Assembly: GCA_002898255.1 (NCBI GenBank)
Contig: BEIE01000002.1
Span: 434,001 to 498,000 of the forward strand
DNA: 64,000 bases
Reading direction: 5' to 3'
DNA from: a bacterium HR28
GTDB taxonomy: Bacteria > Chloroflexota > Chloroflexia > Thermomicrobiales > Thermomicrobiaceae
Below, in pieces: positions 19,037 to 26,127 of this stretch; positions within the stretch are counted from its first letter, which is position 1; the number at the start of each line of letters is the position of its first letter. The position numbers and the translations under genes were made by a program. The notes below the pieces were generated by a model. It made no database searches and was not told where the DNA came from. It was given only the letters and a program-made list of their open reading frames with translations.

Positions 19037-21076
19037 TCAGTGTGACGCCTCCCCCTTTACGGCCGAGGCAACGGTGCCCGGTGACGCTGTCTGTGACGCC
19101 AAGAGCTCACGAGCGAGCGCAATGACGTGCTTGACCGTGAAACCGAACTGTTCAGCCAAGACAGCAGCCGGCGCGGAGGCACCGAAGCGGTCGATGCCGT
19201 GCCCCTGGCCGTGCGGTCCGAGGTAGCGTTCCCAGCCCATGATTCGAGCGGCCTCGACGACGAGGCGTCGTGGGACCTCTGGTGGCAAGACGGAAGACCG
19301 ATAATCTTCTGGCTGGCACTCGAAGAGTTCCCAGCTGGGCATGCTGATAACCCGAGCAGCGATCCCCTCTTTGGCGAGCTCCTCCGCTGCCTGCACGATA
19401 AGGGCGACTTCGGAGCCACTGGCGATGAGGAGAAGGTCGGGCGGCCAGCGTGGTGCCTCCCGCACCACGTAGGCACCGCGTGCCAGCCCCTCGGCCACGC
19501 CGGCAGTGACGGTCGGTACCTTCTGACGGGTGAGCACAAGAGCGACTGGCCCCTCCTGCCAGTTGAGCGCAACGCGCCATGCTTCCACGGTTTCGGCGGC
19601 GTCGGCTGGCCGGATGACGGTGAGGTTGGGGATCGCGCGTAGGGAAGCAAGGTGCTCTATGGGCTGGTGCGTTGGGCCATCCTCGCCAAGGAAGATGCTA
19701 TCGTGGGTAAAGACGTAGATGACAGGAAGACGCATCAGAGCGGCAAGGCGCAAGGCCGGGCGCAGGTAGTCACTGAAGACGAGAAACGTTCCGCCATAGG
19801 CAATAAGACCACCGTGGAGTGTGAGCCCATTGAGCATTGCCCCCATGGCATGCTCGCGCACGCCGAAGTGGATGTTCCGGCCGGTGTATCGCCCTTTGGC
19901 AATTGGTGGATAGCCTTCGAGATAGGTACGGTTCGACTCGCTGAGATCGGCTGAGCCACCAATGAGGAAGGGGATCCGCGGGGCCAATGCGTTGAGCACC
20001 AGTCCTGATGCCTCGCGGGTCGCGAGCTGTTGTCCGTTTGTGAACGTGGGGAGCGCAGCGTCCCATCCAGGCGGAAGAGTACGGGTGAAGGCGGCATCCC
20101 ACTCGGCTGCAAGCTCGGGATAGGCGGAGCGCCAAGCGACGAACTGGGCGTTCCATTCGTCCTCGAACTGCTGCCACTTCGGGCGAAGGCTGGCGAAGTA
20201 GTCGAAGACCTCTTGGGGGACGAAGAACGGGGGCTCTTCTGGCCAGCCGAGTGCCTGCTTGGTGCGACGGACCTCGTCGGGGCCGAGCGGAGCGCCGTGT
20301 GCCGCCGCGGTGTCCTGCTTGCCGGGGCTGCCGTAGGCGATATGGGTGTGGCAGATGATGAGGGTGGGACGCTCAAGCTCAGCTCGTGCCTCCTGGAGTG
20401 CCTGATCGACGGCAGTGCGATCGTGGCCATCGACCTCCAGCACGTGCCATCCACAGGCGGTGAAGCGGAGCCGGACGTCTTCGGTGAAAGTGAGGTCGGT
20501 TGGGCCATCAATCGAGATGTCATTGTCGTCATAGAGGTAGATGAGGCGACCAAGACCGAGGTGACCGGCGAGGGAAGCGGCCTCATAGCTCACCCCCTCC
20601 ATGAGGTCACCATCGCTAACGATGGCATAGGTGTAATGGTCGATGATTGGGTACCCAGGGCGGTTGAAGTGCTCAGCGAGCCAGCGTTCAGCCAACGCCA
20701 TCCCAACCCCGGCGGCAAAGCCTTGGCCGAGTGGGCCGGTTGTGATCTCGACGCCGGGGGTGTGGCCGTATTCGGGATGGCCAGGCGTCCGACTACCCCA
20801 CTGCCGGAAGTTCAAGAGATCTTCGAGCGTGAGTGCGCCGCTCAAGTAGAGGAGGGCATAGAGGAGCATCGAGCCGTGGCCAGCGGACAGGATGAAGCGA
20901 TCGCGGTTGGGCCAGGCTGGATTCGCCGGATTGTGCCGCAGGTGCTTTGTCCACAGGACAAAGGCAGCATCGGCCATCCCCAGAGGCATGCCAGGGTGGC
21001 CGGAACGAGCTCGTTCCACGGCATCCATCGCAAGGACACGAATCGCATCCACACAGCGCTGCTCACGCTCGGACAT
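19037..21076 (-). CDS. tkt: Transketolase
   Basis: 679 residues, full length. The thiamine diphosphate-binding motif begins at [20 protein letters not shown] and ends with the conserved [10 protein letters not shown]. The N-terminal [18 protein letters not shown] is typical, as are [11 protein letters not shown] and [20 protein letters not shown] in the pyrimidine domain. It transfers two-carbon ketol units in the non-oxidative pentose phosphate pathway. The ATG at 21076 lies behind ACGGAGGTG. No other pentose phosphate genes are adjacent. Confidence 0.97.
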
Positions 21077-21310: not shown

Positions 21311-21952
21311 TCACAGGTTCTCAGCACTGGAGGAAGAAGCACTCTGGACACAACGGGCGGAGTCGCTCTCCATTCCCGGTGGTCGCCAGTAGGTTCGCCA
21401 ACCCTGGTTGCGAAGTCGGGCGCCGCGCGGGACTCCGGCCACAACCAACGCAGCGGCCAGGAGATCACCACCGGAGCCAAGCGCGTTGAAGACACCGAAG
21501 GTCAGCAAGAAGTCCTCCCATGGTGGGACAAGCTGTGTGAGGATCAGTGTCACGAGGCTGATGGCACTGAGCGGAAGGAGTGCGACGAGGAGCCAGCGGG
21601 CTCGCCCGAGCTCACCATTGTAGTGCACATAGACCAGTGCCGCACGGGGCCAGACGCCGACGACGAGCTGCGGCGAACCGAGCGATCCCGGTACCGCGAC
21701 CGCATGAAGGAGTTCGTGTACCGGGACGAACAAGAGGAGCGCGACGACGGCTCCCTGGCCGAAAGAGAGAACGAACTCACCAGTCGGATGGAGGAGCAGC
21801 GCCAGCACGAGGTAGCCGACCGCAGCGAGGGCGCCGAGCGGTAGAGCGAGGACGATGACAGCAGCGATATGGCGCGGTTCGCGGAGTGCTCGCCAGGGCG
21901 GCTGAGGATCAAAGGACGGGTCAGGGGGCGGCGGACCGAAAAGGATACGCAT
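21311..21952 (-). CDS. DUF3267-like membrane protein with HExxH (putative zincin)
   Basis: 213 residues with about four membrane segments. The motif HELLH within VPVHELLHAVAVPG matches the zinc site of DUF3267/YfjP-like putative membrane metalloproteases, followed by conserved-looking ALVYVHYNGELGRARWLLVALLPL. The substrate is unknown and proteolysis has not been shown for most of the family. The ATG follows GAGGGAA. A TTGACC/GGTCAA inverted repeat lies upstream at 22022-22038 and could be an operator. Confidence 0.78.
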   Translation of the reverse strand: MRILFGPPPPDPSFDPQPPWRALREPRHIAAVIVLALPLGALAAVGYLVLALLLHPTGEFVLSFGQGAVVALLLFVPVHELLHAVAVPGSLGSPQLVVGVWPRAALVYVHYNGELGRARWLLVALLPLSAISLVTLILTQLVPPWEDFLLTFGVFNALGSGGDLLAAALVVAGVPRGARLRNQGWRTYWRPPGMESDSARCVQSASSSSAENL

Positions 21953-22738: not shown

Positions 22739-22767
22739 CGGTACACCCCCACGTGCGTGGGGACAAC
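22739..22767 (-). repeat. Solitary I-E-type CRISPR repeat, downstream copy
   Basis: 29 bp, identical to 23786-23814. Read on the minus strand it starts GTTGTCCCC, has a perfect CCCCAC/GTGGGG stem around GCAC and ends GTGTACCG, the form of type I-E repeats and close to the Thermus I-E repeat. It begins 5 bases after the stop codon of the second cassette gene. There is no second repeat within spacer distance, so it is not an array. Confidence 0.75.
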
Positions 22768-22772
22768 GTTCC

Positions 22773-23216
22773 TCACGTTCCTCGGGAGTCAGGTTCACGG
22801 CGCTCTCCTTTCTCCAGGATTTCCAGAACCCGTTCCACGCCGGTGGGGTCTTGCCCCTGCTTTATCGCTTCTTGGCGCTTGCAGACCTCGACCAGCTGAT
22901 GCACTCCGAGGTAGAGGAGGATGTTGAGGGCAATGTTGAAGGCTTCCTGCTCGTCGGTGATCTGGATGGATTCTCCCTCGGAGAGCCAGAGATCCACATA
23001 GTCTGCGGAGAGAGAGATCCCCTCACCCTCGCCCACGGCGAGACCAAGGAACAGGGTGATGGTGGGCATCCGTGCATCGGTGCGGCGGAAGGCGAGGACA
23101 CACTGGTAGCGAGTGCGATAGGGATCCCTGAGGGTTTTGACGTGAGTGACCGCGATTTCCGGTTCTATGGTACGGAAGAGCTGGGCGACGGTAGGGTTCT
23201 TGTGGGTAATTTCCAT
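22773..23216 (-). CDS. Unknown protein B of the repeat-bracketed cassette
   Basis: 147 residues, predicted mixed alpha/beta. It includes strand-rich sequence (YQCVLAFRRTDARMPTITLF), then an acidic segment SADYVDLWLSEGESIQITDE, and a helical C-terminus (LNILLYLGVHQLVEVCKRQE). I recognise no family or motif. The ATG at 23216 is preceded by GAGGTGGAG. It starts 17 bases after the stop of the upstream gene, so the two form an operon. Its stop codon is followed almost immediately by a CRISPR-type repeat. Confidence 0.75.
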   Translation of the reverse strand: MEITHKNPTVAQLFRTIEPEIAVTHVKTLRDPYRTRYQCVLAFRRTDARMPTITLFLGLAVGEGEGISLSADYVDLWLSEGESIQITDEQEAFNIALNILLYLGVHQLVEVCKRQEAIKQGQDPTGVERVLEILEKGERREPDSRGT

Positions 23217-23233
23217 GCTCCACCTCACGAGAA

Positions 23234-23746
23234 TCAGGGCGGGCCGGCCCCGGCAGTATAGCAGAACTTAGGCATCCAGGGGAGATATACGCTTGCCTCC
23301 ATTTCCGCGAGTGCATCCTGGAGTGTTGCTGAGGTGAGGGGAGCAATCTCGATAGAGCCATCCTGGATGCCCAGGAGTTCCAGGAGGACGCGGAGCTGAG
23401 CGAGCTGGGCATCGAGGGTACGACCTGCCCAGAGACCAAAGGCGGCAAAAGCGAGGTCGACCTCGGTGCGATGGTCTTGCTGGAATCTCTCCCGGAGCTG
23501 GGCCAGCAGGGATTGGTTGAGTGTGACGCTGCGGAAGAGGTTGATGAAGAGATCGTCGAGGAGGTGGAGTGCCTCCTCGTCGCTTGAGAACAGGTGGGCG
23601 AGGTGGTGCTGGTGCTGCTGGCGGAGCAGGAGGAAAAGGGAGCGGACCTGAGCCCACCAGGGATCGAAGGGGACGCGCCCTAGGAGGACATCGGCAACAG
23701 CGTTTTCGATGGAGCTGAAGCGGCGCAGGAGATCCCGGGCTGCCAT
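23234..23746 (-). CDS. Unknown helical protein A of the repeat-bracketed cassette
   Basis: 170 residues, predicted almost entirely helical and Leu/Gln/His-rich (FLLLRQQHQHHLAHLFSS). An RFQQDH segment fits the loose R-x4-H pattern of HEPN RNases, but this is weak and could be chance. I recognise no family. The ATG at 23746 follows AAAGGAG. The gene is first in the operon, and a CRISPR-type repeat lies 40 bp upstream of its start, within the leader. Confidence 0.75.
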   Translation of the reverse strand: MAARDLLRRFSSIENAVADVLLGRVPFDPWWAQVRSLFLLLRQQHQHHLAHLFSSDEEALHLLDDLFINLFRSVTLNQSLLAQLRERFQQDHRTEVDLAFAAFGLWAGRTLDAQLAQLRVLLELLGIQDGSIEIAPLTSATLQDALAEMEASVYLPWMPKFCYTAGAGPP

Positions 23747-23785
23747 GGCGCGCTCCTTTCATTTGGAGGCGGGGAGGTGGCAGGC

Positions 23786-23814
23786 CGGTACACCCCCACG
23801 TGCGTGGGGACAAC
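23786..23814 (-). repeat. Solitary I-E-type CRISPR repeat, upstream copy in the cassette leader
   Basis: 29 bp, identical to 22739-22767 and in the same orientation, with 1018 bp between the two copies. Flanking sequences are unrelated. It lies downstream of the candidate promoter and upstream of gene A, so it would be transcribed as part of the cassette mRNA. Confidence 0.75.
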
Positions 23815-23853
23815 ACTGGGTCCTGATGCGAAAAAACGGCCTTCACGCTCCCG

Positions 23854-23882
23854 ATAGTACCACATCGGCTTCACGATGGGAA
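23854..23882 (-). promoter_or_regulatory. Candidate promoter of the repeat-bracketed cassette
   Basis: On the minus strand TTCCCA (23877-23882), 17 bp, TACTAT (23854-23859). Each hexamer matches consensus at four of six positions. Transcription would start near 23846 and include the repeat. Confidence 0.35.
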
Positions 23883-24611: not shown

Positions 24612-25931
24612 TTAGGCACTGCGCCGGGCCAGGAGCTCCTGCCAGACAGGACCGTCGGGGTAGCGGTACTGTTCGAGCGACTCCCGCTTCATCTCGATCG
24701 AGTATCCCGGCCGTTCCGGCGGCAGATAGCGCGCGTGCCGTACCCGCACAGGATCGACGAAGTGCTCGTGGAGATGATCGACGTGCTCGATCATCCGGTG
24801 CTCCATGGTGCCGCTCACGGCAATGAAGTCGAACATCGAGAGGTGTTGCACGTACTCGCACAAGCCGACACCACCGGCATGGGGACAGACCGGGACACCA
24901 AACTTGGCTGCGAGCAGGAGTACCGCGAGCACCTCGTTGACGCCACCCAGCCGACAAGCGTCGATCTGGCAGAAGCGGATGGCACCCGAGGCGAGGAGTT
25001 GCTTGAAGATCACTCGGTTGGCACAATGCTCGCCCGTGGCGACACCGATTGGCGCGAGTGCTTCAGCGATCGCTTTGTGGCCAAGGACATCGTCGGGATG
25101 GGTGGGCTCCTCGATCCACCAGGGATCGAACTCCGCGAGCTCGCGCATCCAGGCGATCGCCTCGGGGACATCCCAGCGTTGGTTGGCATCCATCATGAGC
25201 TTGCGCTCCGGGCCAATGACGTCGCGCAAGAGACGAGCGCGAGCACGGTCGTGCGCAAGATCCTGGCCCACCTTCATCTTGATGGCGGTGAAGCCCTGCT
25301 CGATAGCTTGGCGTGCCAGCGCGGCGACCTGCTCGTCACTGTAGCCGAGCCAACCAGCTGAAGTGGTGTAGCAGGGATAACCGGAACGGAACAGCTCCTG
25401 CTCGCGCTCGGCGCGCAATGGTGCCTGGCGACGCAGAAGCTCGAGCGCCTCGTCCGGGGTGAGTGCGTCGGTGATGTGGCGGAAGGGGATGAGGCGGACC
25501 AGTTCTTCAGGTGAGAGGTCAGCCAGCAGCTTCCAGACCGGTTTCCCAACGGCGCGTGCCCAGAGATCCCACAAGGCATTGATGATGGCGGCCGTTGCGA
25601 GGTGCAGAACACCCTTCTCCGGGCCAACCCAGCGCAGTTGCCCATCCGCCGTGAGCCGATACCAGTAACGGCCAAAGTCAGCGACGATGTCCTCCAAGCG
25701 TTGACCAACGACGAACGGCTCGAGCGAGTGGACAGCGGCGACACAGAGCTCGTTCCCGCGACCGATGGTGAAGGTGAGACCGTGGCCTTCCAGGCCCGGA
25801 GAATCGGTATGCAGGATGACGTACGCCGCCGAGTAGTCGGGGTCGGGATGCATGGCATCGGAGCCGGCCAGGGTAAGGGAAGTCGGGAAACGGACGTCGT
25901 AGACCTCGATACGCGTGATCGTCGTTGGCAC
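24612..25931 (-). CDS. Enolase-superfamily sugar-acid dehydratase (L-fuconate dehydratase type)
   Basis: 439 residues, the length of fuconate dehydratases. The N-terminal [20 protein letters not shown] capping domain matches this subgroup. The barrel carries the Lys pair region AIKMKVG, the metal ligands [15 protein letters not shown] and GEH, and the late [14 protein letters not shown]. It should remove water from a six-carbon aldonic acid to give a 2-keto-3-deoxy acid. Specificity for L-fuconate is inferred from similarity. The GTG at 25931 follows AAAGGAGATG. It is separated by 289 bp from the GH20 gene upstream. Confidence 0.9.
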
Positions 25932-26065
25932 GGAACATCTCCTTTCGACCCGGCACCTCGTTCTGTGGTGACTGAGTCGGGCTTGGCATGCACGGTGATG
26001 AGAGTGCCCGACGGGGTCATCATCGCAGAAGCCGTGCGGCTTTGGAAGAGCCAGACAGGAGCCTG

Positions 26066-26127
26066 GTGCCGGGCGGCATCTCACCGCCGGGCACATTTTC
26101 ACCCAGGCGAAGATATGCTCGCCTGGG
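26066..26127 (+). terminator. Two tandem hairpins with T-runs on the plus strand
   Basis: Hairpin 1 pairs 26066-26076 with 26084-26094 (11 bp, one mismatch) and is followed by ATTTTC. Hairpin 2 pairs CCCAGGCGA (26102-26110) with TCGCCTGGG (26119-26127) and is followed by CTCTTTTCC. Both T-runs are on the plus strand, although both flanking genes are on the minus strand. Confidence 0.45.

Follow-up and report, generated by a model that had tools for sequence, protein, structure and literature searches.

Introduction

Loss of cas genes that leaves an array behind is common. Orphan and degenerate arrays of this kind are known, for example the I-F remnants of E. coli cited in PMC8616872. Solitary repeat units on phages are also established, often beside anti-CRISPR genes and even in the same transcript, and integration into arrays through such units has been proposed (PMC10651486, PMC8616872). 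Our search of the literature for gene-sized or kilobase spacers, or for gene capture in arrays, gave nothing direct, and a search aimed at remnant arrays found none. As far as these searches show, no description exists of a leftover array in which an intact phage-related operon occupies the position of a spacer.

In this study, we analysed such a locus in a 64-kb stretch of DNA, the window, which corresponds to C2:434001-498000 of the genome of a Thermomicrobium from a hot spring (3.12 Mb, 8 contigs, 99.6% complete). The locus was compared with those of four congeners: Thermomicrobium sp. CFH 73360 (G023), Thermomicrobium sp. SKW109 (G026), Bacterium HR27 (G022), and G025.

Results

Two type I-E repeats enclose a two-gene operon

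The window contains two identical copies of the 29-bp sequence CGGTACACCCCCACGTGCGTGGGGACAAC, separated by a gap of 1018 bp (Table 1). On the minus strand the repeat reads GTTGTCCCCACGCACGTGGGGGTGTACCG, which has the type I-E form and folds into a 7-bp stem with a 4-nt loop. No chance copies were expected from shuffled sequences, even when 3 mismatches were allowed. Genome-wide, the repeat was found only twice, both times at this locus; a third near-copy at C1:396309, with 7/29 mismatches, was judged to be due to chance. The repeat is palindromic and is common to an array linked to I-E cas genes, whereas the spacers of 32-33 bp expected of type I-E are replaced by a single 1018-bp interval. 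The two repeats were confirmed as genuine type I-E CRISPR repeats. An earlier sequence-only reading of this DNA had described two identical repeats of type I-E form 1018 bp apart, and on this point the sequence and the congener array agree.

The same reading had noted that exactly one two-gene operon is enclosed, in the sense of the array, and that a repeat begins 5 bases past the last stop. Both observations held. Gene 1 and gene 2 lie on the minus strand like the repeats and occupy 94% of the interval. The stop codon of gene 2 is 5 bp from the left repeat. A stretch of 39 bp separates the right repeat from the start of gene 1, whose ATG is preceded by AAAGGAG. The GC content by codon position was coding-like in both genes.

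The structure model of gene 1 was all-helical (pLDDT 72.7). A PDB fold search with this model gave no match at E <= 0.001, the best hits being generic helical bundles. The model of gene 2 (pLDDT 49) was too poor for fold comparison. Pfam, PHROGs, and PADLOC gave nothing above cut-off for either gene, and so no match that would mark one of them as an anti-CRISPR protein. No relatives of either gene were found in IMG/VR, the INPHARED phages, and the plasmid collections, and none of gene 1 in the GTDB contigs beyond the two prophages described below. Neither gene matched a transposase family above cut-off, and no inverted-repeat pair was seen to bound the insert. Without a transposase match or terminal inverted repeats, the idea that the pair is an insertion sequence was rejected. 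An Rfam search near the locus returned solely a sub-threshold match to a eukaryotic family, which was taken as chance.

Table 1. Features of the locus and its neighbourhood (positions are those of the window)
Feature	Position	Strand	Basis
Type I-E CRISPR repeat, leader-proximal	23786..23814	-	Identical to the repeat of the HR27 (G022) array; conserved leader flanks
Type I-E CRISPR repeat, leader-distal (last), identical to the first	22739..22767	-	No further repeat beyond
CRISPR leader, putatively the region with the promoter for the array and hence for the gene pair	23815..23876	-	Alignable to congener leaders
Segment of 39 bp from first repeat to gene 1, with Shine-Dalgarno AAAGGAG	23747..23785	-	Sequence
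Gene 1, 170 aa, all-helical by prediction; homologous to proteins from prophage early regions	23234..23746	-	Homology, HMM, structure model
Gene 2, 147 aa from ATG; weak similarity to the next prophage gene	22773..23216	-	Weak profile/BLASTP match, gene order
Enolase-superfamily gene, next to the I-E locus on its leader side; neighbour conserved in the genus	24612..26102	-	83-88% DNA identity to L038, L039, L040, L042
Membrane protein, M50-like by inspection, conserved neighbour on the opposite side	21311..21952	-	Same neighbours in L038, L041
Transketolase, next after the membrane protein gene	19037-21076		Neighbours conserved in L038, L041

The array is a remnant without its cas operon

In the four congeners, the same enolase gene adjoins either this repeat or the complete I-E cas operon (L038, L039, L040, and L042). 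In HR27 the repeat forms a 16-repeat array beside this gene, with spacers mostly of 32-33 bp. CFH 73360 and G025 have 2-repeat remnants beside it (1-2 mismatches), and CFH 73360 has two further decayed repeats. In SKW109, the order on one contig is enolase-cas3-cse1-cse2-cas7-cas5-cas6e-cas1-cas2, and a single repeat is located at the edge of another contig, which carries the opposite neighbour of our locus. The repeats of the congeners thus belong to an ordinary array and occur without the gene pair. This synteny indicates that the locus is a remnant array without cas genes and that the I-E cas operon was lost in this species. Synteny shows the two repeats to be the first and the last of a degenerate type I-E array whose cas operon has been deleted. 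The alternatives offered earlier were that an array had broken or that the pair had inserted into one, and this is what the comparison bears out.

We then looked for I-E cas genes in the window genome. Cas6e (PF08798) and Cse1 (PF09481) were absent, and control genomes matched as expected. The sole Cas1 match belonged to a type I-B-like locus, about 11 kb from a 192-repeat array. An active type I-E system is thus not present, since Cas6e, Cse1, and an I-E Cas1 are all missing. It had been suggested that a Cas6e of this cell could cut out or regulate the message; with no such enzyme found in the genome, this mechanism cannot run here. The sequence-only reading had itself named two findings that would tell against it. 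One was a genome with no array or Cas6e using this repeat, and this is what we found, with two copies only. The other was repeats that are common intergenic elements, and these repeats are not.

It is therefore extremely improbable that the locus is a functional operon in which the repeats are present so that Cas6e can cut the mRNA. The repeats are intact and lie in the sense strand, as this explanation would have it, but the only Cas1 is that of the I-B system, Cas6e is lacking, and in the congeners these repeats belong to an ordinary array that lacks the pair.

The leader is conserved in four species

A 62-nt leader is alignable across four species, as expected of a type I-E array, and the trailer side is not. 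The leader of the window locus shares 70% identity over 60 nt with that of CFH 73360 and 53-55% with those of G025 and HR27. The sequence beyond the left repeat is unrelated to the congener trailers (23-30% identity). The right flank can be aligned to leaders and the left flank has no counterpart, which places the leader-proximal repeat on the right and the last repeat on the left. In a promoter scan, the candidate promoter noted earlier was not a consensus sigma-70 site, and the support for transcription comes from the conservation of the leader. Both genes follow the leader immediately and in array sense, and would therefore be transcribed from its promoter.

Gene 1 is related to prophage early genes

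Two homologues of gene 1 were found, one in the same genome (C4:7400) and one in G025 (C1:70830), and none elsewhere in the 158 genomes of the class. Identity to these two proteins was 25-26%. An HMM built from them ranked gene 1 first among the 621 ORFs of the window, with an E value of 6e-13. In both genomes the homologues are surrounded by an integrase, small genes, an amidase-type endolysin, and tail-like genes. A phage integrase flanks them on one side and an amidase-type endolysin, accompanied by tail-like genes, on the other, which places them in prophages. The profile of the gene that follows in the prophages also ranked gene 2 first of 621, but the match was weak (E 0.12), as was BLASTP of gene 2 against that gene (E 0.07). 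The order of gene 1 and gene 2 is the order of their counterparts in both prophages. These comparisons show gene 1 to be a member of a Thermomicrobium prophage early gene family. For gene 2, the gene order together with the weak and non-significant match (E 0.12) suggests that it may be phage-related. Since the gene 1 family was otherwise found here solely in prophage early regions, the 1018-bp segment is probably phage-derived.

The early modules of the two prophages (L043:6651-9859 and L044:8823-12700) contain several small orphan genes. They also encode two proteins with HNHPP/HSHPP motifs and a JAB/MPN-like look, which matched no Pfam model. A broken copy of a prophage early gene, with the HSHPP motif and two stops, was observed in SKW109 (L041:1080-1499, G026:C101), about 1 kb past the last I-E repeat.

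Spacer 107 of the I-B array in the window genome (L011) matched the prophage integrase of its own genome with 6/35 mismatches (L043:3935) and that of G025 with 8/35 (L044:6139); the best shuffled control had 11 mismatches. These matches indicate that the phage family is a real CRISPR target. Two I-E spacers of HR27 matched the prophage locus of G025 at 8/32, and for each of them all 100 shuffles gave poorer matches; no clear PAM was seen. Against the gene pair itself, the I-B spacers gave nothing beyond the shuffled controls.

A phage that carried a solitary repeat beside the pair could have recombined with the host array, with later deletions leaving only the pair. The reports on phage repeat units and their proposed integration (PMC10651486, PMC8616872) favour this route, which would yield two identical repeats at once and account for a pair right beside a repeat. 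However, the two related prophages contain no repeat-like sequence (best 10-11/29 mismatches), the exact repeat was found in no IMG/VR viral contig, and a second, large internal deletion would be needed. We regard this route as doubtful. This estimate and those for the two other routes below concern the route of entry, and they stand within or beside the explanation preferred in the Discussion.

We also asked how often a blind cut would give such a tidy fit. When 1018-bp pieces were drawn at random from the early regions of the two prophages, 2.2% of positions gave two whole sense genes over at least 90% of the piece, or 1.1% with random orientation. Blind capture alone therefore explains the fit poorly, and selection or a more specific route is needed. 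Taken alone, the tidy fit of the genes is no argument for the giant-spacer route discussed below.

Gene-sized intervals are rare in other arrays

Gene-sized intervals were sought in about 100 arrays near cas1 in the class, comprising about 5,460 intervals with a little overlap between stretches. Almost all intervals were of normal length. Gene-length inserts were mostly IS elements, assigned by reading their translations, with five clear cases (L091, L098, L101, L126, and L172). Two long gaps held cas1 or cas2 (L102 and L085), and most of the remaining long intervals could be put down to repeat decay, duplication of units, or the end of the trailer. Two other intervals were noticed. In G025, a 626-bp interval between decayed repeats at the trailer of the I-B array (L064:18075-18700, C1) contains an ORF followed by a strong terminator-like hairpin. 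In G066, four tandem 185-bp intervals with the same translation lie in a CRISPR array and are bounded by a variant repeat end (L155:16383-17233, C1).

Two loose parallels to the gene pair were found. One is a 277-bp interval near the trailer of the I-B array in the window genome (L011:17486-17762, G000:C1:327486-327762). It contains a complete 80-aa ORF in array sense, 30 nt past one repeat and 4 nt before the next, and this ORF has no relatives in the family, phage, or plasmid collections. Open frames of about 80 aa are not rare in GC-rich DNA. The other parallel is a 1448-bp inovirus fragment in G072 (C11, L086:11214-12661), with two perfect repeats around it, in the second interval from the leader. 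Its Rep shares 31-34% identity with the Reps of two sequenced phages and lacks about 40 N-terminal codons; small genes follow it in an inovirus-like order. The assembly is a draft and the contig ends 81 bp from this interval, so misassembly is possible.

These parallels bear on whether the segment is a giant spacer, that is, whether Cas1-Cas2 or Cas1-led integration placed a kilobase of phage DNA next to the leader, with duplication of the first repeat. The insert directly abuts perfect, identical repeats beside the leader, in the position of the newest spacer. The G072 fragment is cut mid-gene and is flush between its repeats, and the I-B interval holds a complete ORF, though at the trailer end. 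Known Cas1-Cas2 complexes measure spacers of about 30-40 bp, and this measure, like the normal length of almost all other intervals in the scan, speaks against the route. So do the contig end beside the G072 case and the whole genes in the right orientation, which are unlikely from blind capture. No I-E Cas1-Cas2 is left in the window genome. Entry as a giant spacer is accordingly improbable.

A third route is plain insertion by illegitimate recombination into a spacer of a decaying array, the bracketing being an accident of what remained. The array is dead and decaying in several congeners, and the predominance of IS elements among gene-length inserts indicates that arrays tolerate insertions. 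The decayed early gene relative beyond the last SKW109 repeat looks as if the region collects such DNA, and the 39 and 5 bp beside the genes could hide spacer remnants. However, the pair is no IS element or transposon and lacks terminal repeats, gene 2 is only 5 bp away from its repeat, and the decay seen in the rest of the locus has left both repeats without mutations. We regard plain insertion as a quite possible route, stopping just short of calling it probable.

Discussion

Our preferred explanation, which we consider fairly probable, is that phage-derived DNA was captured in a dead array and is transcribed from its leader. The state of the locus is well supported, unlike the route of entry and the protein functions. 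The cas operon of a type I-E locus has been deleted, and the degenerate array retains its first and last repeats. A 1018-bp segment with two intact, co-directional genes lies in the place of a spacer of about 32 bp, and would have entered by DNA capture or by recombination at the repeats or inside a spacer. The pair would then be transcribed from the CRISPR leader promoter, so that the dead array may now provide a small operon of probable phage origin with its promoter and 5' end. With no Cas6e in the cell, the hairpins that the repeats form in the message would at present be passive. The proteins may have been kept because a phage early pair made constitutively is of use to the host, perhaps as a defence against related phages.

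Expression of the genes from the leader, if it occurs, would mean that captured phage genes are now expressed from what was once an immune locus. Should the adaptation machinery have carried out the capture, the strict rule of spacer length has gene-sized exceptions, and the search for arrays and their annotation would change. Array finders commonly cap spacer length, so gene-sized intervals are skipped. With this locus, it becomes testable whether working genes can be captured by CRISPR arrays. A broader proposal is that Chloroflexota arrays take up gene-sized phage DNA as sense-oriented giant spacers and express it from the leader, acting as a platform for gene capture as well as a memory. 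We consider this quite improbable; if true, the window genome would contain two cassettes, namely the gene pair of the I-E remnant and the I-B interval with its 80-aa ORF.

The locus shares features with several described systems. As in integron gene cassettes, whole promoterless genes lie within tight palindromic repeat bounds and are read, here putatively, from an outside leader promoter. Unlike in integrons, the bounds are CRISPR repeats, there is no tyrosine integrase and no attC, and no sign of repeated cassette turnover was seen. IS insertions likewise place kilobase DNA between repeats, but the present insert has no transposase and consists of phage-like small genes in array sense. As with the phage solitary repeat units and Racr (PMC10651486), a repeat lies upstream of, and on the same strand as, small phage-related genes. 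Those are solitary repeats on a mobile element with a matching host system, whereas here there are two repeats, they lie at the site of a host array whose leader is conserved, and the chromosome lacks the matching cas genes. Like orphan and degenerate arrays, the array stands isolated at its ancestral place, with its repeats kept and its cas operon gone; unlike them, it holds in its interval two whole genes instead of a spacer.
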